The notes under the pieces were generated by a model. The model was not told the origin of the DNA, did no database searches, and saw only the letters and a program-made list of their open reading frames with translations. Of a stretch of DNA of 44,094 bases, positions 2,504 to 32,638 are shown piece after piece. This DNA is from Bacteroidota bacterium (GTDB taxonomy: Bacteria; Bacteroidota; Ignavibacteria; UBA10030; BY39), in contig JASEGV010000019.1 of NCBI GenBank assembly GCA_030017895.1, forward strand, positions 1-44,094. The letters are read 5' to 3'. Both the position numbers and the translations under genes were made by a program. Numbering within the stretch: the stretch's first letter is position 1; every line of letters begins with the position of its first letter.

Positions 2504-3547
2504 ATGAAACACAAAGACAACCGACCTCGTTCTTTTTTTGACGAACACTTTCGTTTGGAAAAGTTGAGCCAGCAAAACGATCCGCTACATAAACTCAAAG
2601 AACGGATCCACTGGGAATTGTTTCGTCCCTTGTTGAATGAAACGCTTTACAAAGAAGCCAAAGGTCCTGGCGGCTGCCGTCCCTATGACTATGTGCTGAT
2701 GTTCAAGATACTCATTTTACAACGTTACTATAATATTAGCGATGATAAGATGGAGTTCGCAATTTTAGACCGTCTTTCATTTATGCGTTTTTTGGGATTG
2801 ACCATTTCCGACAAAGTTCCCGATGCTAAAACGATCTGGCTCTTTCGCGAACAACTAACAAAAGCCGGTGCGATAGAAAAACTGTTCGTGATTTTTAATG
2901 AATATCTCAACAACGAAGGGCTTGTTGCTCATGAAGGGAAGATGGTGGATGCTAGTTTTGTAGAAGTTCCTATTCAACGCAACACTCGTCAGGAGAACAA
3001 ATACATTAAGAAGGGAAACATTCCCGAGCAGTGGAAAGAGAACCCACATAAGTTGGCACAAAAAGATACCGATGCTCGTTGGACGAAGAAAAACGGAAAA
3101 AATTATTATGGCTATAAAAATCATATTAAAGCCGATACAAAAAGCAAGTTGATAGATAGTTATGTGGTTACCAATGCCAGTGTGCACGATAGTCAAACAG
3201 TGGAGCAATTGATTTCAGAAAAAGATGCTGGACAACCCCTTCATGCCGACAGTGCCTATAGTGGCGAGCCAGTTGTCCAGGCGGTAGAAGAAAAAAAGAT
3301 AATCAACCAGATTCAAGAAAAAGGATATCGCAATCATCCGCTTTCAGAAGAACAAAAAGAAAACAATCGTCATAAATCTAAAATACGCGCACGAGTTGAA
3401 CACATCTTTGGCTTTGTAGAAAATAGTATGGGCGGCTTATGTATCCGAACTATCGGACTGACAAGAACTACGGCTGTCATAGGATTGATGAATCTTACGT
3501 ACAACTTATTTCGGTACCTCCAGCTAACACAACTAAATTCGGGATAG
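2504..3547 (+). CDS. IS5-family DDE transposase
   Basis: The ATG at 2504 is chosen because GGAAG lies about 9 bases upstream; an ATG at 2429 in the same frame lacks such a site. The 347-residue product begins 'MKHKDNRPRSFFDEHF', followed by the usual N-terminal IS5-type domain ('YDYVLMFKILILQRYYNISDDKMEFAILDRLSFMRF', split here as the well-known DUF772-like region). Catalytic residues are Asp149 in 'MVDASFV', Asp249 in 'HADSAYSG' and Glu299 in 'ARVEHIFG', the DDE triad of the IS5/IS4 superfamily. 'GYKNHIKAD' between the two Asp residues is also typical. The gene looks intact and the element complete, so it may still be active. Confidence 0.95.
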   Translation: MKHKDNRPRSFFDEHFRLEKLSQQNDPLHKLKERIHWELFRPLLNETLYKEAKGPGGCRPYDYVLMFKILILQRYYNISDDKMEFAILDRLSFMRFLGLTISDKVPDAKTIWLFREQLTKAGAIEKLFVIFNEYLNNEGLVAHEGKMVDASFVEVPIQRNTRQENKYIKKGNIPEQWKENPHKLAQKDTDARWTKKNGKNYYGYKNHIKADTKSKLIDSYVVTNASVHDSQTVEQLISEKDAGQPLHADSAYSGEPVVQAVEEKKIINQIQEKGYRNHPLSEEQKENNRHKSKIRARVEHIFGFVENSMGGLCIRTIGLTRTTAVIGLMNLTYNLFRYLQLTQLNSG

Positions 3548-3779: not shown

Positions 3780-6700
3780 ATGAGTAATTTAAAAAGAAAA
3801 ATGGTCTTTCTGATCGCTATTATCATTGCTCTGATGCTTTCGCCTATACCGATGAAATCACAAGAATTGTGCGGAGTCATTCCAGAAGAAGGGATGACAT
3901 TTCAAAAAGCCGTGCCATATGCATCGTTACAAGAACTCTCAAGCTATCGCCCAGCGTGGACTCGACATATCAAATTATCCGTACACATCGTACGTTACTC
4001 TAATGGTAGTGGTGGAATTTCACAGAGCACAATCAATACCGCTGTACAGCAACTCAATTCAGCTTATTCAACTGCACAGATCGCATTCGAGATTGCGAAT
4101 ACTTATTATATCGATAATGATACTTACGCATATCTCGATAATGAGGCAGAAAGAATAGCACTTATGGCTATCAACGTGCAACCTGCTACTATCAATGTGT
4201 ACTTTGTACCGGGTGCTGCCGGAATTTCTGGAGCTGCCTATCAACCGGGTATCAGATTGATTGTCGTGAATGCGTACGCAACCAATGGCACTACCTTTCC
4301 GCACGAGGTGGGACATAATTTATTTATCTTGCATACTCACGATGAAACATACGGGAAGGAAAGAATAACTCGCGTCGATATTCCCAATTGTACAGCCAAT
4401 TGTAGTTCAGCGGGTGATCTTCTCTGCGATACACCGGCGGATCCGAATCTTTACGGTAATGTGAATGCAAATTGTCAATGGACGGGAAGCGGTACAGACC
4501 CTTGTGGTCATACGAACTACAATCCAGACACAAGAAATTACATGTCATATGCAGGTCAGTGTCGTAACCAGTTCAGTAGCCAGCAGATTGACCGGATGCA
4601 CTATATGCTTAGCACTAACCCTACTATTCGCCCGCTAATCCAGGTATCTGTTTCTATGGCGAATAAGGTTGGTAACAACACCGTAACAGGGAGTACACTC
4701 TCAGTTAATACGTCGACTGTCAACTCGGGTAGCGATATAGTTCTGCTGGATGGAGACCAGTACAACGGAAAAACGAATCATGAACGGTTTTCCAATTATG
4801 CTGGTCCGCAGGGCACCGGCGATTATAAGCACAACGAGTGGAACGGCAATGCTACTGAGTTCAGATTGCTGGAGAATTTCACTGTCGATAGAACAACCGA
4901 AAATGGTCGCAAAAGAGACGCGAATTTCAAACATCTAAATCCAAATCAAGTTAGATCAGAGTTAATTGAGACAGGTGTAACAGGTAGCTTCGAATGGAAA
5001 GACCCTTGGTGGGTAGATGGAAGCGGTAACCAGCCAAATACATTTCGAAATATTACAACTATCCTTAATGAAGGCGTGTTCTTGAATCAAAGGATACAAG
5101 ATGGGGTTTACTACACCGTCCGTGTGCCGCAGAGCCAGCCAATCGGCGGGTATAATGCTAACTTTGGCGTTTGGTCAGGCGAAGGCGCAACGCTTACTAA
5201 TCCTACAAATCTAGAAAGTCCAGTCGTGTTTAATAGCACAGATGCGGTAGTGAAAGCTAATTATAAACTTCCAATGAAATCGAATCTATCAACTGCAATT
5301 ACGGGAAACACACAAAGAAAATTAGTAGACTATGATGGTTTATGGTTAGCTTATGAGAGTGCAGGTAGAGTATGGGTTGCTAAATCAACAGATGGTGCGA
5401 ATTCATGGATACCTGAAAGTTATATTGGTGAGGGAAGCAAACCTTCAATATCAGCGGGTGCAAGTGGTAGAGATATCACTTTCAATAAAAAGCAGGCTGA
5501 TAATACCTATTCAGTTTTTTGGAGGCGTTTTGGAGTGCCCAATACTGATGTTGTGGGTTTAGGTTCTACAACAAGTGATGTGGAACCAAATCCAGTAGTA
5601 GGGGATATTTGTGTAGGATATTATCCAAACTATCCCACTCCGATTCCAATTTATAACGTGTATTTTTTCTGGAATAATACTAATGGAATAAGTTATCATA
5701 CGAAAACTGTTATTGCTGCTTCTCATTCATACGAAAGTGGCGGAACTTTGACTAAACCAAATTCCCTACTCAGAAATCCAAGTCTCGCTATGCCATATTT
5801 AACGTATGACGATAATACAAAAATATATTTAAGAAAGTTTTGGAGCGATACAGCAACGTATCAAAGTGGATTCGGTGGCGAGGAAATCGTTCCTGCCAGC
5901 GACCGTGAAGACCTAGGCACATTGAATGATCGTGAAAGCCGCAAATCTCAAGTAACATCTTCTGGAGATATAGTTTGGGAAGTAGGTAACTATCTACCTT
6001 TTAGAGATGATCCTATTGACGCTAACAGCTTTCAATCTCTCGCACTGGCACCAGAGCCCGGTGACCCTCCACCATCACCGCCAAAGTCTGCAATATTTTA
6101 TCAGAAACGAAACAGCAACGGCACATATGGTGCTGCAATATCATGGTCTGGGTCATTCAATTTTTATAACCCAACAATCGCATCATATAACGGCAATATA
6201 ACTGTAATGTGGGAAACCGGTGTAAATATGTATCGTGTCAGCTCGCCCAATTTAGGCATCGGAAACGCTGTTATTACTGCTGGAGTAAATCCAAACCTTG
6301 CTTCTGATCAATTAAAATACGCTTATTTAACAAGCTCAGCACCGTTGTTTAATTTAAACGTCCAACCCGAACAAGCAGTCGGACCGATTCCGCTTGATAG
6401 CTGCGAAATAGTTGTGTGCGAGGATGATCCGGGTAATGTTTATGATGTAACGACATCGAGAAGCGGTATAATTTGGTCGGTTAGCGACAGCACACGCTTT
6501 GAAGTTATCATAGGACAACCAAAATTATTTGCTGCCAATGGCTCTGTTGCACGTGTCCCATTTGAAGAAATAGCAGGTAGTGCCGATGTAACAAGTATAG
6601 ATAACCTTGTCGATTTACTAAAAACAAAACCGTTTAAAATTACAAGAGATAGTATAAGAGTCGGAGGCGAGATTATTGTAAGGAATCCTAATGGTTTAAT

Positions 6701-7265
6701 AATACCTGGTACTCCCTACGGTAAAGTGAAATTTGAATTAGTAGATGCAACGACAGGAAATGTTTTGATGCGAATCGGGAACGAGATGACTTTTGAACAA
6801 TCGAGTAAAATACGGTTTAACAACAAATCACCGGTAAAAAATTTAGCTGGAAGAACCGTTTACATTCGACCTCGCTTTGTTGGTTTCCCGAAGAAAAATT
6901 TATCGGGGACAATAGTAAATAATTATTACATTAAAAATATTGTTCCGAGTTCGCAAGCAATCTCAAAATCAAACACTAATGAAGAAGTAAAAAATATGCC
7001 GGTAGATTTTGGTCTGTCTCAAAACCATCCCAACCCGTTTAATCCAACGACACAAATAAGCTATGCGCTTCCTGATCCGGGTTATATTACACTCAAAATT
7101 TACGATGTCCTCGGTCGCGAAGTGGCAACTCTTGTTGATGAGTTTAAAGATGGTGGTTATTATGAAGCAACTTGGGATGCAACAAATATTCCAAGCGGCG
7201 TATTTTTCTACCGAATGCAGACTGGTTCGTTTAGTGAAACCAAGAAACTTATTTTGATGCGGTAA
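3780..7265 (+). CDS. M43-like (pappalysin/cytophagalysin) secreted metalloprotease with T9SS sorting domain
   Basis: A 1161-residue exported protein. The ATG is preceded by a strong AAGGAG. A signal peptide spans residues 1-27 (MSNLKRKMVFLIA..., ending near 'KSQE'). Residues about 50-290 form a zincin domain: 'HEVGHNLFILH' (His175, Glu176, His179, His185) and the Met-turn 'NYMSY' (Met255), with 'GDLLCDTPAD' between them, as in M43B peptidases. The usual Gly at the eighth motif position is Phe182. A long middle region (330-1050) contains beta-rich, bacterial-sialidase-like strings. The last 80 or so residues are a T9SS type A sorting domain ('NPNPFNPTTQISYALP', 'LKIYDVLGREVATLV', 'SGVFFYRM', 'KKLILMR'). 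It is probably released or anchored on the cell surface. An IS element lies just upstream and terminators lie downstream. Confidence 0.9.
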   Translation: MSNLKRKMVFLIAIIIALMLSPIPMKSQELCGVIPEEGMTFQKAVPYASLQELSSYRPAWTRHIKLSVHIVRYSNGSGGISQSTINTAVQQLNSAYSTAQIAFEIANTYYIDNDTYAYLDNEAERIALMAINVQPATINVYFVPGAAGISGAAYQPGIRLIVVNAYATNGTTFPHEVGHNLFILHTHDETYGKERITRVDIPNCTANCSSAGDLLCDTPADPNLYGNVNANCQWTGSGTDPCGHTNYNPDTRNYMSYAGQCRNQFSSQQIDRMHYMLSTNPTIRPLIQVSVSMANKVGNNTVTGSTLSVNTSTVNSGSDIVLLDGDQYNGKTNHERFSNYAGPQGTGDYKHNEWNGNATEFRLLENFTVDRTTENGRKRDANFKHLNPNQVRSELIETGVTGSFEWKDPWWVDGSGNQPNTFRNITTILNEGVFLNQRIQDGVYYTVRVPQSQPIGGYNANFGVWSGEGATLTNPTNLESPVVFNSTDAVVKANYKLPMKSNLSTAITGNTQRKLVDYDGLWLAYESAGRVWVAKSTDGANSWIPESYIGEGSKPSISAGASGRDITFNKKQADNTYSVFWRRFGVPNTDVVGLGSTTSDVEPNPVVGDICVGYYPNYPTPIPIYNVYFFWNNTNGISYHTKTVIAASHSYESGGTLTKPNSLLRNPSLAMPYLTYDDNTKIYLRKFWSDTATYQSGFGGEEIVPASDREDLGTLNDRESRKSQVTSSGDIVWEVGNYLPFRDDPIDANSFQSLALAPEPGDPPPSPPKSAIFYQKRNSNGTYGAAISWSGSFNFYNPTIASYNGNITVMWETGVNMYRVSSPNLGIGNAVITAGVNPNLASDQLKYAYLTSSAPLFNLNVQPEQAVGPIPLDSCEIVVCEDDPGNVYDVTTSRSGIIWSVSDSTRFEVIIGQPKLFAANGSVARVPFEEIAGSADVTSIDNLVDLLKTKPFKITRDSIRVGGEIIVRNPNGLIIPGTPYGKVKFELVDATTGNVLMRIGNEMTFEQSSKIRFNNKSPVKNLAGRTVYIRPRFVGFPKKNLSGTIVNNYYIKNIVPSSQAISKSNTNEEVKNMPVDFGLSQNHPNPFNPTTQISYALPDPGYITLKIYDVLGREVATLVDEFKDGGYYEATWDATNIPSGVFFYRMQTGSFSETKKLILMR

Positions 7266-7270
7266 TATCT

Positions 7271-7299
7271 TGTATGTCGAAATGCCATTTCGACTTACA
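7271..7299. repeat. Hairpin after the metalloprotease gene
   Basis: GTCGAAAT (7276-7283), loop GCC, ATTTCGAC (7287-7294), extended by TGTA/TACA outside one mismatch. It has no T-run, so it is more likely a repeat or an mRNA-stabilising hairpin than a terminator. Confidence 0.5.
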
Positions 7300-7351
7300 T
7301 AGTCCCGATTTATGAACAATCTTTCGTTAGGTAAAAATCGGAAGATTTACA

Positions 7352-7388
7352 GAGCCGGTTTCTCAGCGTGGGAAGTCGGCTCTTTTTT
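7352..7388 (+). terminator. Rho-independent terminator
   Basis: The stem GAGCCG (7352-7357)/CGGCTC (7377-7382) carries an additional TTC/GAA pairing inside and is followed by six T residues. It ends the metalloprotease transcript. Confidence 0.7.
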
Positions 7389-7399
7389 GTTAGTGCAGC

Positions 7400-7430
7400 G
7401 TAGGTCGGATTTTGTTTACATCCGACTTAC
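7400..7430. repeat. Inverted repeat before the C69 dipeptidase gene
   Basis: GTAGGTCGGAT (7400-7410) pairs with ATCCGACTTAC (7420-7430) over 11 positions including one G-T pair. It shares the GTCGGA core with the hairpin at 674-738. The rest of the 7266-7505 gap is AT-rich, without recognisable features. Confidence 0.45.
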
Positions 7431-7505
7431 TAAACCCCTCCTTTTGAATTTTAGTAGGTAAATATTATATTAAATGAAAAATTTATAAACAATTTGGGTA
7501 TAAAT

Positions 7506-9314
7506 ATGAAAACAAAATTTGTTTTAATCGGATTACTATTCTTATTCACTCAAGCATTTCCATGCACAAGCATTTTGGTAACGAAGGGGGCATCGACCGA
7601 CGGGTCAACGATGATAACTTATGCTGCCGATTCGCACCAGCTATATGGCGAATTGTATCATTGGCCCGCTGCTAAATATCCGGAAGGAACTATGTTGGAT
7701 GTTTACGAGTGGGATACAGGAAAATATTTAGGAAAAATTAAACAAGCACGAGAAACTTATTCAGTCATCGGGAATATGAACGAACACCAGCTAACAATCA
7801 GCGAAACAACTTATGGAGGACGCGATGAGTTAGTTGATAAAACTGCAATTGTAGATTACGGGACGCTGATTTATGTAACACTGCAACGTGCAAAAACTGC
7901 ACGCGAAGCAATTAAGTTAATGGGCGAGTTAGTTGCTGAATACGGCTACTACAGCTCAGGTGAATCAATGTCTATCGCCGACCCAAATGAAGTTTGGATT
8001 TTAGAAATTATCGGAAAAGGCGAAGGGAACAAAGGAGCCGTTTGGGTTGCACAAAGAATTCCTGACGGATATATTTCTGCTCACGCAAATCAAGCCCGTA
8101 TTACAACCTTCCCTCTAAACGATCCAAACAATTGTATCTATTCACCCGATGCAATTTCGTTTGCACGCTCAAAGGGATATTTTACAGGGCAAGATAAAGA
8201 TTTTAGTTTTTCTGATACTTATGCACCTTTGGCTTACAACTCGATTCGATTCTGCGAGGGAAGAGTCTGGTCGGTTTTCAGAAGAACGAATAAGAACATG
8301 GGAAAATATATTTCGTACATCAAAGGTGAATCGCTTGAACGAATGCCATTGTGGATCAAGCCAGACAAAAAATTATCGGTTCATGATGTAATGGAGTTGA
8401 TGCGCGACCATTTCGAAGGGACTGAATTTGATATGACAAAAGATGTTGGCGCCGGTCCTTATGCCTGCCCATATCGATGGCGTCCTTTAACTTGGAAGTA
8501 CGAAGGTGAAACTTACTTGAATGAACGCGCAATCTCCACACAACAAAGCGCCTGGGTTTTTGTAACTCAATCACGATCGTGGCTGCCTAATCCAATCGGT
8601 GGTGTGTTATGGTTCGGTATCGATGATTCTTATTCTACTGTTTATGTTCCGATGTATTGCGGTATTAAAAAAATTCCTCATAACTATGCAGTTGGAACGG
8701 GTTCGTTCACCGAGTTTACTTGGGAATCGGCTTTCTGGGTTTTCAATTTTGTTGCAAATTATTCTTACTCGCGTTACAGCGATATGATAAAAGATATTCA
8801 AATTGTTCAGCGGGAATTGGAAGGAAAATTTTTAGCCGATCAACCGTCAATAGAAAAAACAGCAGAAACACTCTACAAAACTTCACCCGAAAAAGCGAGA
8901 GATTATTTAACCGACTACACACTTGAAAAGGCAAAAACTACAGTTGAACGTTGGAAAAAATTAGGGGAGTTTTTAATATTTAAGTATTTAGATGGAAATA
9001 TGAAGAACGAATACAACAAGCCAACACATCCCGGATATTCAGATACGTGGAAAAAAAATGTAGTTACCGATGCTGGCAATACGTTGAAAATGAAAAAACT
9101 TCCCGGCGAAATAGAGAGAGATTACCAGAAATTAATTTCTACCGGCGATAAACTTCTGAAAGAAAAAAAATATGCAGATGCAAAAAAATCGTTTGCTGAT
9201 GCACTAAAAGTAAAACCGAACGAAGAATATCCTAACGAAAAAATTGCACAAATAGATAAATTAATGAAAGAACTTGAAGTATTGCACGATAAACACATAG
9301 GAATAAAAAATTAA
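7506..9314 (+). CDS. C69-family dipeptidase (PepD-like) with C-terminal TPR-like tail
   Basis: The ATG at 7506 begins a classic signal peptide (MKTKFVLIGLLFLFTQAFP) that ends immediately before Cys20 in 'CTSILVTKGASTDGS'. This is the N-terminal nucleophile sequence of peptidase family C69 (an Ntn-hydrolase fold), exposed by cleavage. Further family signatures are 'MITYAADSH', 'QLTISETTYGGR', 'GESMSIADPNEVWILEIIG' and 'VWVAQRIPDGYISAHANQARI'. The body extends to about residue 535. The last 60 or so residues ('GDKLLKEKKYADAKKSFADAL', 'KVKPNEEYPNEKI') look like one tetratricopeptide-type unit added to the peptidase, an uncommon extension. The product likely acts in the periplasm on dipeptides or short peptides. 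It is followed 22 bases later by murA, but the shared direction alone does not prove an operon. Confidence 0.88.
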   Translation: MKTKFVLIGLLFLFTQAFPCTSILVTKGASTDGSTMITYAADSHQLYGELYHWPAAKYPEGTMLDVYEWDTGKYLGKIKQARETYSVIGNMNEHQLTISETTYGGRDELVDKTAIVDYGTLIYVTLQRAKTAREAIKLMGELVAEYGYYSSGESMSIADPNEVWILEIIGKGEGNKGAVWVAQRIPDGYISAHANQARITTFPLNDPNNCIYSPDAISFARSKGYFTGQDKDFSFSDTYAPLAYNSIRFCEGRVWSVFRRTNKNMGKYISYIKGESLERMPLWIKPDKKLSVHDVMELMRDHFEGTEFDMTKDVGAGPYACPYRWRPLTWKYEGETYLNERAISTQQSAWVFVTQSRSWLPNPIGGVLWFGIDDSYSTVYVPMYCGIKKIPHNYAVGTGSFTEFTWESAFWVFNFVANYSYSRYSDMIKDIQIVQRELEGKFLADQPSIEKTAETLYKTSPEKARDYLTDYTLEKAKTTVERWKKLGEFLIFKYLDGNMKNEYNKPTHPGYSDTWKKNVVTDAGNTLKMKKLPGEIERDYQKLISTGDKLLKEKKYADAKKSFADALKVKPNEEYPNEKIAQIDKLMKELEVLHDKHIGIKN

Positions 9315-27335: not shown

Positions 27336-27433
27336 AGCACTGACCTTTATTGATGATTGATGATGAAATAATAACAAAAGTAAGCATTAATTACAAGGAT
27401 AGAAATTCGGGAAGTCTATATCTATTAGGGCTA

Positions 27434-27480
27434 ATTAGTGTAATCCGTGGCAATTATTTTCAGCCACTAATTACACTAAT
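27434..27480. repeat. Hairpin repeat downstream of the GxxExxY gene (copy A)
   Basis: The 18-nt arm 27434-27451 (ATTAGTGTAATCCGTGGC) pairs with 27463-27480 (GCCACTAATTACACTAAT) at 16 of 18 positions, with an 11-nt loop. It is followed by TACACGAATT. A second copy in the same orientation lies on the other side of the GxxExxY gene. Confidence 0.75.
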
Positions 27481-27489
27481 ATACACGAA

Positions 27490-27864
27490 TTAGAGAACAA
27501 TCCTTTTATAAGTAAGTTTTTCCTTTCCAAAATTTACGATCAGGCCAAGCTTACATTTAGAAACAGCGAGATAGTTTATCGTTCGTTTGATAAATTCATC
27601 GACGATACCGTCCACAGCTTTAACTTCTAAAATTATTTTTTTGAATACGACAAAGTCAGCATAATACTTATGTGGTAAAATTATATCTTTGTAAGAAATA
27701 TCATATTCTTTTTCTCTTTGAAAAGGAACACCTCTCCTTCGAAATTCATACTCGATAGCATCCTTATAAACAATCTCAAGAAACCCACCACCCAATAAGC
27801 CGTGAACATCCATACAAACCCCAATTATTTGAAACGCTTCATCTTTATATATCAAATCAACCAT
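27490..27864 (-). CDS. GxxExxY protein (PDDEXK-like fold)
   Basis: About 124 residues from the ATG at 27864, preferred because GGAAGG lies 9-10 bases upstream; an in-frame ATG at 27882 would place that site inside the coding region. 'GGGFLEIVYKDAIEYEF' contains the family-defining G-x-x-E-x-x-Y, and 'YYADFVVFKKIILEVKAVDGIVDEFIKRTINYLAVSKCKLGLIVNFG' contains the D-x(n)-ExK pattern of PDDEXK nucleases. The biological role of the family is not established. The gene is bracketed by direct copies of a hairpin repeat, suggesting that it moves or spreads as a unit (inference). Confidence 0.88.
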   Translation of the reverse strand: MVDLIYKDEAFQIIGVCMDVHGLLGGGFLEIVYKDAIEYEFRRRGVPFQREKEYDISYKDIILPHKYYADFVVFKKIILEVKAVDGIVDEFIKRTINYLAVSKCKLGLIVNFGKEKLTYKRIVL

Positions 27865-27890
27865 TTCATATATCCCTTCCATTTGTGTTA

Positions 27891-27960
27891 TTTAGTGCTA
27901 TTCGTGGCGATAAGAGATTGCCACTAATCCGCCAGAGGACGGACGAATGTTCACGAATTT
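27891..27960. repeat. Hairpin repeat upstream of the GxxExxY gene (copy B)
   Basis: ATTCGTGGC (27900-27908) pairs with GCCACTAAT (27920-27928) at 8 of 9 positions around an 11-nt loop, then TTCACGAATT follows. It aligns with copy A in the same orientation, but the right side is interrupted by the GC-rich near-palindrome CCGCCAGAGGACGG. Its far end overlaps the stop codon of the CoA-binding protein gene. Confidence 0.65.
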
Positions 27961-28667: not shown

Positions 28668-28820
28668 ATTCAATTATATTATACAAAAATCATTTAATAA
28701 TCACAAAACAAGTACGATTTTAGGTCTGGAAATAATGTCAGCAAGCTAAGTTGTGGGGAAGCTATGATTAGTAAATATATTTTGATAATGAATTATGACC
28801 ACAAAGGTACTAAGATACAA

Positions 28821-29120
28821 TTAACTATCAAACATTTCACCTTTTGAGAAATAAAGTTGAATTTTAGTTTTATAATATCGGCGCATTTCTTGTGTTTTTC
28901 GATAACGCTCTTTTGACATTTGCCTTGTTCGTTCTCGATAATCTTTATTTTCGTGATAACGTTTTTTTGCCCTCTCAATTGTCGCTTTCCTATACTCTGC
29001 ATTTTTGTGATACCTTTCGAGTGATTGTTGTTTTAAGATAGCACGATATATTTTATCTTTTTGATAACGATTATTCTTTGGATGTTTTAGTATTTTCTCT
29101 GTCTGTTTTTGTAATTCCAT
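28821..29120 (-). CDS. Hypothetical highly basic protein with 18-residue repeats
   Basis: A 99-residue protein rich in Lys, Arg, Glu and Tyr. It consists mostly of 18-residue units of the form RYxxNxxYRxxxxxxxKx: 'RYQKDKIYRAILKQQSLE', 'RYHKNAEYRKATIERAKK', 'RYHENKDYRERTRQMSKE', then a partial 'RYRKTQEMRRYY'. The pattern predicts long charged helices, possibly nucleic-acid binding. No named family is recognised and the ribosome binding site is weak. It starts 10 bases after the stop of a 50-residue upstream frame. Regular amino-acid periodicity favours a real gene over a chance frame, but the evidence is modest. Confidence 0.5.
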   Translation of the reverse strand: MELQKQTEKILKHPKNNRYQKDKIYRAILKQQSLERYHKNAEYRKATIERAKKRYHENKDYRERTRQMSKERYRKTQEMRRYYKTKIQLYFSKGEMFDS

Positions 29121-29129
29121 AACGCAATT

Positions 29130-29282
29130 TTATTTTAATATATTGTAACTATTTATTGAGTTCTTAACGGCAATTTTTTCTAAGCCACTAAGACTTTCCT
29201 TGTGCTTGATATTAACATTATGTATCGGCTTGCGTAACTTTTTTAATTCTTCAAGAGCTTTAAGATGATCTTTATTATCCAT
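29130..29282 (-). CDS. 50-residue frame resembling the start of DUF1003 (possible remnant)
   Basis: A frame from the ATG at 29282 encodes 'MDNKDHLKALEELKKLRKPI', then 'HNVNIKHKESLSGLEKIAVK' and 'NSINSYNILK'. The middle part resembles the short segment that precedes the two membrane helices in DUF1003 proteins ('NxNxxHxxxLSxLxKIA'), but here the frame stops before any membrane helix. It may be a truncated DUF1003 gene or a small protein in its own right. It lies 10 bases upstream of the repeat protein gene on the same strand. Confidence 0.4.
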   Translation of the reverse strand: MDNKDHLKALEELKKLRKPIHNVNIKHKESLSGLEKIAVKNSINSYNILK

Positions 29283-29391
29283 TTCAAATCCAATTTGGTG
29301 GTGAGTGCCTGGGGATGGTTGCTAAACGTTACTATGAAATACGAATGTTGAATGAAAAGAGAGCGGTTCCTTGATTATCAGTTTAGCTAAT

Positions 29392-30318
29392 TTATTCTTC
29401 ATCGAAATAATCTAAATCAATTTTCTTAATCTGATAGGCAGATACAGTCGAAACAGCTAAATCAAAATCAATCATATATTGAGTTAACAGTTCTCCATCA
29501 ACCAAAACAATCTTTGTTTCATTTTTAGGAGTATAATCCAAAGCCTCTTTAGAAAAATAAGAAGTAGTTATAAATATTCCTTTCTTAGCGCCTTGTCCGG
29601 CTAATGCGCCAACGAATTTTTGCAATTCAGGTCTACCGATTACGCCTTCCCATCTCTTTGCTTGGATATAAATTACGTCTAAGCCAAGTTTATCTTCTTT
29701 AATTATTCCATCGATTCCTTCATCCCCACTTCTGCCAATTGCTTTGCCAGCATCCTTTATTGAACCACCGTAGCCCATTTTGACTAGTAACTCAATAACT
29801 AATTTTTCAAAAAAAGATGCAGGGAGGTTCTTAATTTTTGACAACAAATCTTGAGATAAGGACTTTCTAATTTTTTGGTAAGAATATTCTAAACTCTCTT
29901 CTGGTGTGAGGTCGTTATCGTTATCAGATGCAATCTCAGTTTCGGTCTCATCTTTTTCAGATCGATCTTTTTTATACGTTTTTGTGTGCTCGATATATTC
30001 TGGAATCACCTTTAAAGTTTTTAAATTAACAAAAGGGGGATTGGTTTTTAGTAAGTCTAAGCCGTTTTGAGTGATTTTGAAATGAGCGCGTTTAGTGTTC
30101 TCAATTAAAGCAGCCATTTTTAGATGTGCTTTTGCCCAAAAGACACGGTTATAAAACACATATTGTGTGCCACTTGGAAGAAGTTGGGATAACTCATCAT
30201 CGCTTAGATTGAACTCTTTCGACAGATATTCAATGGTATCTTTGGTAGAATGCTCTAGTTTATCAATACAAAATTTTAATAATGGCAACATTATACTTTG
30301 AAAATCTGGAATTCGCAT
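29392..30318 (-). CDS. mrr: Mrr-type restriction endonuclease
   Basis: About 308 residues from the ATG at 30318, selected because GGAG lies 6 bases before it and the family begins 'xxPxxxxxxxPxL'. The N-terminal winged-helix Mrr_N domain spans about 1-90 ('RIPDFQSIMLPLLKF', 'FYNRVFWAKAHLKMAALIE'). An acidic linker is at about 110-145. The catalytic Mrr_cat domain spans 165-300, with 'FFEKLVIELLVKMGYGG', 'GRSGDEGIDGIIKED' and 'IYIQAKRW', the D...QxK variant of the PDDEXK site. Mrr cleaves methylated DNA in characterised members. It is next to HicBA in an accessory region. No partner methyltransferase is adjacent, as expected for a type IV enzyme. Confidence 0.93.
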   Translation of the reverse strand: MRIPDFQSIMLPLLKFCIDKLEHSTKDTIEYLSKEFNLSDDELSQLLPSGTQYVFYNRVFWAKAHLKMAALIENTKRAHFKITQNGLDLLKTNPPFVNLKTLKVIPEYIEHTKTYKKDRSEKDETETEIASDNDNDLTPEESLEYSYQKIRKSLSQDLLSKIKNLPASFFEKLVIELLVKMGYGGSIKDAGKAIGRSGDEGIDGIIKEDKLGLDVIYIQAKRWEGVIGRPELQKFVGALAGQGAKKGIFITTSYFSKEALDYTPKNETKIVLVDGELLTQYMIDFDLAVSTVSAYQIKKIDLDYFDEE

Positions 30319-30380
30319 TTTATTCTCCATTTTTATTAACATTAAATATTAATCATTTGTACGATAATCTGAATAGCACA

Positions 30381-30407
30381 ACCGCTGATTCCGCTTACAC
30401 AAGCGGT
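30381..30407. repeat. Alternative hairpins between mrr and hicA
   Basis: CCGCTT (30391-30396) pairs with AAGCGG (30401-30406), while ACCGCT (30381-30386) can instead pair with AGCGGT (30402-30407). The two structures exclude each other. There is no T-run. Functional meaning is uncertain. Confidence 0.3.
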
Positions 30408-30507
30408 GGGAACAATATGTTATTTAAAACTATTCAAACTCAAACAGCTTTTCGTCAAGCTCGTTTCAAAACAGAAATTTAACATCTTTGTAAAACTAAT
30501 GTATTGA

Positions 30508-30714
30508 CTAAAAATTTTTGAATTCTTCTTCCGTGATGTTAGCTTGCTTTAATATTTTACGAAATGTTCCAATCGGAATATCTCCAGTATGCATCGCGAC
30601 GTACGTTTGCCTTCCCTCTGCATGTCTCAAAATTATATGAGAGCCGGATTGGCGTCTGACCTCAAAGCCCGCCCGTTGTAATTTTTGTAGAACCTCTTTA
30701 GCCGAGTATGGCAT
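30508..30714 (-). CDS. hicA: HicA toxin (mRNA interferase)
   Basis: A 68-residue protein with the HicA double-stranded-RNA-binding-like fold: 'LQKLQRAGFEVRRQSGSHIILRH' contains the catalytic His26 in 'SGSH', followed by 'VAMHTGDIPIGTFRKILKQANITEEEF', the family C-terminus. It cleaves mRNA when not neutralised by HicB. Its start overlaps the end of the antitoxin gene by 17 bases, so the pair is translationally coupled, in the order antitoxin then toxin. Confidence 0.93.
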   Translation of the reverse strand: MPYSAKEVLQKLQRAGFEVRRQSGSHIILRHAEGRQTYVAMHTGDIPIGTFRKILKQANITEEEFKNF

Positions 30715-30940
30715 CTTCCAATTCTATAAATGAATATAATGACTCAGATTCTGGTTTTATTTTCTCACCGTTAGATTTCTTTTCCTCAATCCAAAGTTTA
30801 ATTAAATCAAGAGCAGCATTCTTAGCACCTTCGATGCCTAATCCGTGAGTTGTAAGGTCGAGTGTAGGTAGGTGGGCGTAATAATATCCCTCCGGAAAAT
30901 TTGTCTCAGTTATTTTTTCATAGATGACTGTAAAATTCAT
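30698..30940 (-). CDS. hicB: HicB-like antitoxin
   Basis: About 80 residues from the ATG at 30940, with AAGGTG 6-7 bases upstream. 'GYYYAHLPTLDLTTHGLGIEGAKNAALDLI' is the HicB partial RNase H-like fold. There is no room for a C-terminal ribbon-helix-helix or helix-turn-helix domain, so this is the short HicB form that may bind the toxin without binding DNA itself. The next stretch upstream (30941-31108) holds only an AT-rich tandem repeat ahead of glmM on the other strand. Confidence 0.88.
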   Translation of the reverse strand: MNFTVIYEKITETNFPEGYYYAHLPTLDLTTHGLGIEGAKNAALDLIKLWIEEKKSNGEKIKPESESLYSFIELEDAILG

Positions 30941-31108: not shown

Positions 31109-32527
31109 ATGAGTCTGATCGTTAGCATATCCGGTGTCCGCGGTGTAGTTGGGGAGACCCTAACTCCCGAAGTTGCAGTGCTTTATGCAAAATCTTTTGC
31201 CGAATACTGTCTGCAAAAAACTCCACAGGGAACCAAGTGTAAAATCGTACTCGGCAGAGACGGCAGAATTACTGGTAAAATTTTAACCAACATAATCTCG
31301 TCAACTTTGCTCGCTATGGGATGCGATGTTGTTGCAATCGGTGTTTGCCCAACGCCTACGGTTGCACTTGCGGTTGAGAAGTCGGATGCCATCGGTGGTA
31401 TCGCCGTTACGGCGAGCCACAATCCTATGCAGTGGAATGGAATGAAATTCTTCAACCACGAGGGTTTATTCCTCGATGCGAAGGAGATGAAAGATTTTTT
31501 AGAAGTGGTAAATTCCGGTTATATGAATTATGCGGCTTGGAACAAAATTGGAACTCATATATCCGATACATTCTGGATACAAAAACACATCGATACCGTT
31601 TTACAACTCAAGTGTATTGATGTTGAAAAAATAAAGAGCAGAAAATTCAAAGTAGTACTTGACTGTATTAATAGTGCGGGCGGAGTAATTGTACCGCCGC
31701 TGTTGAAGATGCTTGAATGTGAAGTTGTTGAAATGAACTGCGACGTGAGCGGAATATTTGCACACACTCCCGAGCCAATCCCCGAAAATCTTACTGCTTT
31801 AGCACAAAAAGTTCGAGACGAAAATGCAGATCTCGGAATCGCTGTGGACCCGGATGTTGATAGGCTTGTTTTAATTACAGAAAAAGGTGAACCACTTGGC
31901 GAAGAATATACAATTGCGTCTGTGGTAAATTTTGTACTGAGCAGAGAGCAGAGAGCAAAGAGTCCCGCCGATGGCGGGATAAACTCCGAGCAAAGTGTGG
32001 TTGTGAATTTGTCAACGACGAGAGCGGTGGATGAAATTGCAAAAAGTTATAATGCAGAAGTTGTTAGAACTCCTGTCGGAGAAATTAATGTTGCGAAGAA
32101 GATGAAGGAAGTCGGTGCAATTATCGGCGGCGAAGGAAGCGGAGGTGTAATATATCCCGAAGCTCATTACGGCAGGGATGCTATTGTGGGAATCGGGTTG
32201 GTGCTGCAAATGCTTGCTGAGTTTGGCAGGAGTTTGTCGGAGTACAAAGCTACATTGCCGCAGTATTATATTACTAAAAGTAAAGTTGAAATAGGGAATT
32301 TAAATCCTGATAAACTTCTCAATCAAATTATTGAAAAATTTAAAGATGAAAAGATTAATACTGAAGACGGTGTTAAAATAGATTTTGCTGATTCGTGGGT
32401 GCATTTAAGAAAATCGAACACTGAGCCGATTGTGAGAATAATTGCCGAAGCTACGAATGTAATGGAAGCAGAACAATCGGTCAAGCATTTTAAAGAAGAA
32501 ATCCTTAAATTAAGTAAGGAACATTGA
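31109..32527 (+). CDS. glmM: Phosphoglucosamine mutase (Bacteroidota-type phosphohexomutase)
   Basis: Converts glucosamine-6-phosphate to glucosamine-1-phosphate for UDP-GlcNAc synthesis. The 472-residue product starts 'MSLIVSISGVRGVVGETLTPE'. The phosphoserine loop is 'TASHNP' (Ser103), the metal loop is the 'DPDVDR' variant typical for this phylum's members, the sugar loop is 'GGEGSGG' and the C-terminal loop is 'RKSNTEPIVRI'. A 20 or so residue segment (about 274-294, 'SREQRAKSPADGGINSEQS') looks inserted between the metal and sugar loops. Its DNA is low-complexity and contains the palindrome at 31963-31979. A phosphomannomutase assignment cannot be excluded. A tandem 8-bp array precedes the start. 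Confidence 0.88.
   Translation: MSLIVSISGVRGVVGETLTPEVAVLYAKSFAEYCLQKTPQGTKCKIVLGRDGRITGKILTNIISSTLLAMGCDVVAIGVCPTPTVALAVEKSDAIGGIAVTASHNPMQWNGMKFFNHEGLFLDAKEMKDFLEVVNSGYMNYAAWNKIGTHISDTFWIQKHIDTVLQLKCIDVEKIKSRKFKVVLDCINSAGGVIVPPLLKMLECEVVEMNCDVSGIFAHTPEPIPENLTALAQKVRDENADLGIAVDPDVDRLVLITEKGEPLGEEYTIASVVNFVLSREQRAKSPADGGINSEQSVVVNLSTTRAVDEIAKSYNAEVVRTPVGEINVAKKMKEVGAIIGGEGSGGVIYPEAHYGRDAIVGIGLVLQMLAEFGRSLSEYKATLPQYYITKSKVEIGNLNPDKLLNQIIEKFKDEKINTEDGVKIDFADSWVHLRKSNTEPIVRIIAEATNVMEAEQSVKHFKEEILKLSKEH
31963..31979. repeat. GC-rich palindrome inside glmM
   Basis: TCCCGCC-GAT-GGCGGGA, in frame and encoding 'SPADGG'. The arms are identical to those at 1162-1178. The preceding DNA (GAGCAGAGAGCAGAGAGCAA) is also repetitive. 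Confidence 0.75.
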
Positions 32528-32638
32528 TTCATTTTCCCATTTATTCATTTGACTATTGACTTAATGGAACAATGATAAAATGATTGAATGCATTAATGCT
32601 AAAATATTGACATTAACATAACTCTACAGTGGTTACAT

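Follow-up and report, generated by a model that had tools for sequence, protein, structure and literature searches.

Why does a small nuclease-like gene lie between two copies of the same hairpin repeat? The question arises in a Bacteroidota contig of 44,094 nucleotides—the whole stretch of DNA analysed here, hereafter called the window—where the only open reading frame of at least 60 amino acids between two hairpins encodes a protein of the GxxExxY family. The initial annotation proposed that gene and repeats form a cassette that spreads without a classical transposase. We followed this proposal from the window to related loci, to the sites that hold or lack the gene, and finally to the possible causes of its movement.

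The GxxExxY gene and its hairpin repeats

The GxxExxY gene occupies positions 27490–27882 on the minus strand. The left hairpin repeat, downstream of the gene (27434–27491, without strand), consists of arms at 27434–27451 and 27463–27480 around an 11-nt loop, followed by ATACACGAATT. The right hairpin repeat, upstream of the gene (27891–27959, without strand), has the core GTGGC-N11-GCCAC at 27904–27924 and an interrupted right arm, and its end is TTCACGAATT. The plus strand of the window contains exactly two copies of GTGGC-N11-GCCACTAAT, at 27447–27471 and 27904–27928, in the same orientation, while dinucleotide shuffles of the window, searched on both strands with up to two mismatches, yielded 0.09 copies on average and one at most. 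ACGAATT follows each copy, at 27485–27491 on the left and 27953–27959 on the right. These observations confirm the arrangement that was initially described, including the GC-rich near-palindrome CCGCCAGAGGACGG (27929–27942, without strand) that is nested in the right hairpin and splits its right arm.

The two copies differ in their folding. The left copy belongs to an inverted repeat of 47 nt whose arms are 89% complementary, and as single-stranded DNA it folds strongly (−12.7 kcal/mol, z −6.7), while the fold of the right copy is less distinct (z −1.5). The term “direct repeats” in the initial annotation holds for the shared orientation of the two copies, but it is only half the description, since each copy is itself a palindrome and in most relatives the gene is enclosed by the left and right arms of an inverted repeat. 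A more accurate description of the repeats is that of inverted arms, any of which can form a complete hairpin. No known RNA family matched within the window. GC-rich palindromes (such as CCCGCCTGCCGTCGGGCAGG) are nested in arms elsewhere as well: besides window positions 27929–27942, they occur at about 2768–2787 of locus L310 and in loci L083, L137, and L341, and they look like a separate small repeat inserting into arms.

What kind of protein does the gene encode? The 130-residue product matches only PD-(D/E)XK models among the protein profiles, namely TIGR04256 (GxxExxY; 127.1 bits, cut-off 35) and PF13366 (PDDEXK_3; 113 bits, cut-off 22), which places it in the PD-(D/E)XK nuclease superfamily. 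In 69 sequences, G31, G33, E36, D76, K88, N117, and F118 are invariant, and E86 and Y39 are conserved in at least 90%. Given the invariance of E36, D76, and K88 and the near-invariance of E86, these four residues are predicted to form the PD-(D/E)XK active-site quartet, which appears intact in the window protein. The AlphaFold2 model is confident (pLDDT 93), and as modelled, the window protein has both the fold and the E…D…ExK residues of the superfamily. Among the fold matches, the Cas4 protein SSO0001 ranks first (4ic1; Foldseek E 3e-4, VIA Z 9.9), and exonucleases, restriction enzymes, and Hjc match less well; a sequence search for solved relatives gave none with a meaningful E-value.

Two other labels for the protein were rejected. 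A Holliday-junction resolvase was considered as the nearest relative because the repeats could form cruciforms; Hjc, with a Z of 6.6 and Foldseek rank 24, falls below Cas4 SSO0001 and the exonuclease folds. A defence-system label was dropped as the window protein has no PADLOC match, and two relatives match Cas4 models weakly, with a best E of 0.014. Elsewhere in the window, an Mrr-type type IV restriction gene lies at 29392–30342 on the minus strand (PADLOC mREase_IV, E 3e-83), and the stretch 28730–30776 is absent from the corresponding region of the sister genome G001.

Inverted arms and their flavours across GxxExxY loci

Do other GxxExxY genes also lie between inverted arms? Such genes are present in 64 of the 98 genomes of the order. 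We reverse-complemented the 200 nt downstream of each gene and compared them with the 200 nt upstream, using a threshold score of 24. The gene was found in 91 of 96 loci (the exceptions being L006, L090, L092, L093, and L094, four of which are Mrp comparison loci), and the 94 open reading frames reduced to 89 distinct ones with a score of at least 80 and both flanks. The threshold was reached by 64 of these 89 loci, as compared to 2.4% of dinucleotide shuffles, and a score of at least 30 by 47, as compared to 0.17%; many of the 25 loci below 24 show units by eye. An independent set from named Bacteroidota genomes (79 loci, after L248 of the 80 was dropped for a short flank) gave 57 at 24 or above against 8.2% of shuffles, and 45 at 30 or above against 0.57%.

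Control flanks rarely behave in this way. Around CoA-binding genes, the highest inverted score was 22, and none of 29 loci exceeded the threshold of 36. Around DUF5615 genes of the same order (L347–L376, 29 of the 30 with both flanks), one of 29 loci reached 24, or three of 29 with the partner gene skipped. In a stricter comparison of arms from the same locus with arms from different loci, 28 of the 89 loci passed for inverted matches at the 99th percentile, a bar that is high because all of the arms share the motif. Seven records of a plasmid collection match GxxExxY, and the flanks of five were inspected: inverted arms are clear in the Bacteroides finegoldii and Bernardetia plasmids (none of 200 shuffles as good in each case). 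The signal is weaker in the Treponema saccharophilum plasmid, where 4 of 200 shuffles do as well, and in that of Gemmatirosa, where 7 do; in Sphingomonas, with 41 such shuffles and a left arm alone visible, it does not reach significance. In the Sphingomonas parapaucimobilis plasmid (L332), the GxxExxY gene lies at 571–999 between fabD and fabG, within a fatty-acid synthesis cluster.

How are the arms built? They are inverted arrays of two to four copies of an 8–10-nt unit (e.g., CACNRAGR), and the commonest unit reads C-R-C-N-R-A-G from the outer end toward the gene on both sides. Units number 1.78 per 130 nt upstream and 2.39 downstream, as compared to 0.18 for 159 control stretches taken from those loci, and their spacing is 8–10 nt in 304 of 457 intervals, with a peak at 9. 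In 49 anchored loci, the outer arm end on either side is TTAACCRCARAGR. The arm-end consensus is TTAACC…GGTTAA, with TTAA flanking both sides in just 4 of 48 loci, and no target-site duplication beyond chance was found in the 48 anchored loci, where the insertions are old. Perfect arm pairing was rejected as the defining feature, since many arms pair imperfectly and the array of units is more consistent; the arms can nevertheless pair as hairpins or cruciforms. Other flavours of arm are built on CACNGAT, on CACGAAT/CACTAAT (the window flavour), and on TCTGAAC.

The flavour of the arms follows the protein tree. This tree contains 127 of 169 distinct proteins (the whole order set and the even-numbered half of the second set), and it has few columns for many forks and places the window protein on a long branch. 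On it, three arm classes require 3 changes, as compared to a shuffled mean of 20.2 with none of 200 shuffles as low; the classes are patterns that we wrote ourselves, and loci L124 and L141, first scored as “none”, were manually assigned to a class, although excluding the two cannot increase the number of changes. The TCTGAAC class forms one clade with a support of 100. The split between CAC and CGC arms requires 15 changes, as compared to 34.4 after shuffling (minimum 27 in 200, none as low). Judged by sequence, this analysis shows gene and arms as one unit with family-specific arms. The co-clustering of flavour and protein points to their travelling together, and co-travel alone could yield the pattern, which is therefore not proof of recognition.

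The density of the repeat also follows the gene. Of 12 degenerate arm patterns tried on the flanks beforehand, CRCNRAGRNCRCNRAGR was chosen for counting in whole genomes; its density is 8.0 per Mb in the 64 carriers (control pattern 0.59) and 2.27 per Mb in the 34 non-carriers (control 0.93). Over the 98 genomes, the Spearman correlation of its density with gene presence is 0.62, and that of the control pattern is −0.23. Four of the five genera holding both states agree with this trend, while g12 shows no difference, and the repeat is nonetheless present in 7 of the 34 genomes in which no gene was detected.

Filled, solo, and empty sites

Has the unit changed place? The comparison rests on the window's genome (G000), the only other member of its genus among the relatives searched (G001), and an outgroup (G004). 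At the window's own site—hereafter called site A—G001 keeps the gene order, with an M14 peptidase (88% amino acid identity), a CoA-binding protein (75%), and a DUF2007 protein (83%) in common, and has one hairpin and no GxxExxY gene. This solo hairpin contains a different GC-rich palindrome in the same place as in the window's right copy. The cassette of G001 lies 3.4 kb from the solo hairpin, between phosphoglucomutase-like and EutN-like genes: window positions 27433–27908 align to C39:12134–12607 with 85.7% nucleotide identity and hairpin sequence on both sides, and the encoded proteins are 91% identical. The corresponding spacer in the window, site B (32500–32638, without strand), contains neither gene nor repeat in G000, merely unrelated sequence, and the 82-nt spacer of G004 likewise lacks any repeat; in G002, the site is occupied by another insertion. 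Since site B is empty in G000 and in the outgroup and filled in G001, the alignments make it most likely that G001 acquired the whole cassette there in one piece. At site A, the change could have gone either way.

An empty site that keeps one repeat copy, which the initial annotation suggested seeking in related genomes, is thus found at site A of G001, and both empty and solo-hairpin sites occur at other loci as well. At the rpmE–GlmU-like site, the gene lies inside the arms in G037, G007, and G048; hairpin remnants without the gene are present in G077 and G033, and the site is empty in G052, G068, and others. The gcvP–CoA-binding site is filled in G033, G052, and G060, while G077 has a left stub and the right arm on either side of unrelated sequence; three genomes carry a lone hairpin whose flavour differs, and the site is empty in the rest. 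Upstream of the CoA-binding gene, where relatives have the GxxExxY unit, L262 (G048), L263 (G056), and L265 (G080) contain solo hairpins of a different flavour, the CAAGATTACAAGATT type. As read from these alignments, the unit is shown to be present or absent at orthologous sites, and solo hairpins can be remnants of its deletion.

Other loci look more stable. In many Flavobacterium species, the GxxExxY gene lies upstream of trpS, and this apparent long stability of some loci implies that any activity must be low. In the loci L212 and L214 of two Flavobacterium species, near 3001–3360, the gene is inverted relative to its neighbours with turn-over points in the arm region, which suggests recombination between inverted arms.

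Within the 3.2 Mb of G000, the window-flavour pattern has ten matches, which make up five hairpins with two matches each: two at the window, two in the Mrp operon (C17), and a solo one (C43). This count rests on reading the places, as C17 14933–14950, among the ten, is a further single match with one mismatch, and one arm of the window's right-hand copy is without a pattern match. The pattern is absent from G002 and G004. G000 has six GxxExxY matches, four of full length and two fragments, and by eye each of the six is bracketed by its own flavour of short-period repeat. The fragments, in L005 and L006 (G000:C5 and C11), are decayed, and one of them contains a stop codon, but both retain repeat arms on either side.

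Candidate movers of the unit and known systems

What moves the gene and its arms? From these comparisons, the mobility of the two as a unit is well supported. The proposal of a cassette spreading without a classical transposase stands in that gene and both hairpins change place and no transposase gene lies between the repeats; movement by the unit's own enzyme does not follow from this, and a trans-acting transposase or host recombination could also be the mover. We consider it probable that [arm]-GxxExxY-[arm] is a small mobile unit with inverted repeats, in which the predicted nuclease acts on its own arms to move, copy, or spread the unit. The nuclease role, the mechanism, and the choice of target are what we infer.

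In the proposed mechanism, the GxxExxY protein would recognise the array of units in its own arms, whether cruciform or duplex, and cut there. Repair or replication of the break would then copy or move the unit, or spread it among repeat copies. Perhaps the nuclease also cuts solo repeats, so that the unit is copied in during repair. The solo hairpins would be non-autonomous derivatives, related to the unit as MITEs are to transposons.

The strongest rival holds that the GxxExxY gene is a passenger, one of several trapped small genes, and that the repeats are moved or recombined by a trans-acting transposase or by RecA-dependent or replication-slippage exchange. Its strength comes from the same hairpins bracketing other cargo too. 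At one Mrp-operon site between two MrpD-type genes, window-type hairpins enclose different cargo in the two sister genomes: a methyltransferase with an SNase domain in G000 (L055, G000:C17, about 6180–8300) and a DUF433/DUF5615 pair in G001 (L090, G001:C50, about 950–2030). The two operon genes are adjacent, and the site is empty, in the three outgroups G002, G004, and G032. Solo repeats, some of them in genomes without a detected GxxExxY gene, point the same way. It also speaks against our preferred reading that G003 has window-type hairpins and no detected cognate gene. The initial annotation had regarded a repeat abundant in all intergenic regions, irrespective of GxxExxY genes, together with a lack of empty sites, as evidence against its proposal. 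This is borne out in part: repeats independent of the gene do occur, as solo hairpins, around other cargo, and in G003, but they do not occupy all intergenic regions. The passenger explanation leaves aside the specificity of the arm link (64 of 89 GxxExxY loci as compared to one of 29 DUF5615 loci of the same order), the arm flavour that tracks the GxxExxY tree, and the repeat density that tracks gene presence, and we regard it as unlikely.

Could the arms instead be regulatory? As operators, terminators, or RNA-stability elements inherited with the GxxExxY gene, they would have no role in mobility. They do lie close to the coding sequence, at a median distance from the domain of 30 nt upstream and 19 nt downstream, and they are conserved as arrays and kept at orthologous sites in many loci. 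However, the gain at site B with both hairpins, the solo hairpins, the inversion, and the density across genomes would all be left unexplained, which makes this explanation very improbable. Least probable of all is loss alone, in which sites A and B were both filled in the ancestor and one of the two was emptied in each species, with no recent movement: the solo hairpin of G001 at site A could be the recombination product of two direct hairpins, and the cassette identity of 85.7% falls within the flanking range of 79–92%, but site B bears no repeat trace in either G000 or G004, so that two clean losses are needed.

The preferred reading, of a nuclease acting on its own arms, may extend beyond these loci. 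We tentatively suggest, as a possibility that falls somewhat short of an expectation, that the units belong to an undescribed class of mobile element, widespread in Bacteroidota and probably in other phyla. In this class, one small PD-(D/E)XK nuclease would move or home its own gene via cognate inverted arms of 8–10-nt units, the sequences of protein and arms would split jointly into flavours, and non-autonomous derivatives and landing sites of the element would account for thousands of otherwise unexplained hairpins between the genes of environmental genomes.

GxxExxY genes are common in the order, yet they are annotated by sequence motif only. Their link to cognate arms offers a testable function for the family and an origin for many of the hairpin repeats between genes. 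Provided that the nuclease promotes its own spread, the unit would be a minimal, transposase-free mobile element whose natural enzyme–site pairs have diverged into flavours; such pairs would be useful for studying the joint change of a nuclease and its DNA site. The window gene belongs to the known family of TIGR04256 and PF13366, and the model name is silent on repeats; what we add is its association with cognate inverted arms. In the portion of the literature searched, with subscription journals and preprints outside its scope, we found no description of this link, and GxxExxY genes are mentioned only in passing.

How does the unit compare with known systems? Its best fold match, SSO0001, relates the protein to the Cas4/lambda-exonuclease branch. 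Cas4 requires a four-cysteine Fe–S cluster. Unlike Cas4, the window protein has only two cysteines and thus no four-cysteine iron–sulphur site, and the loci examined contain no CRISPR genes. Like homing endonuclease genes, the GxxExxY gene is a candidate selfish nuclease gene that is present or absent at a site, and PD-(D/E)XK homing enzymes exist; the catalytic domain of one such enzyme, I-Bth0305I, ranks 35 among the fold matches (E 0.22). Unlike homing endonuclease genes, GxxExxY genes are in intergenic repeats and not in introns, inteins, or conserved genes. With MITEs and insertion sequences bounded by inverted repeats, the unit shares a gene enclosed by terminal inverted repeats, the existence of solo derivatives, and filled and empty sites; it differs from them in having neither a DDE nor another transposase and in arms of short-period units. 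The insertions, at which no target-site duplication was detected, are old.

In the REP/RAYT system (TnpA-REP), a single enzyme gene lies beside palindromes, and many solo palindromes lie elsewhere. REP palindromes are described in PMC3733652. The GxxExxY unit has the same layout, with palindromes flanking the gene and solo copies elsewhere. Unlike RAYT, which is a Y1 HUH tyrosine transposase, the GxxExxY protein belongs to the PD-(D/E)XK superfamily, and the arms beside its gene are arrays of an 8–10-nt unit.
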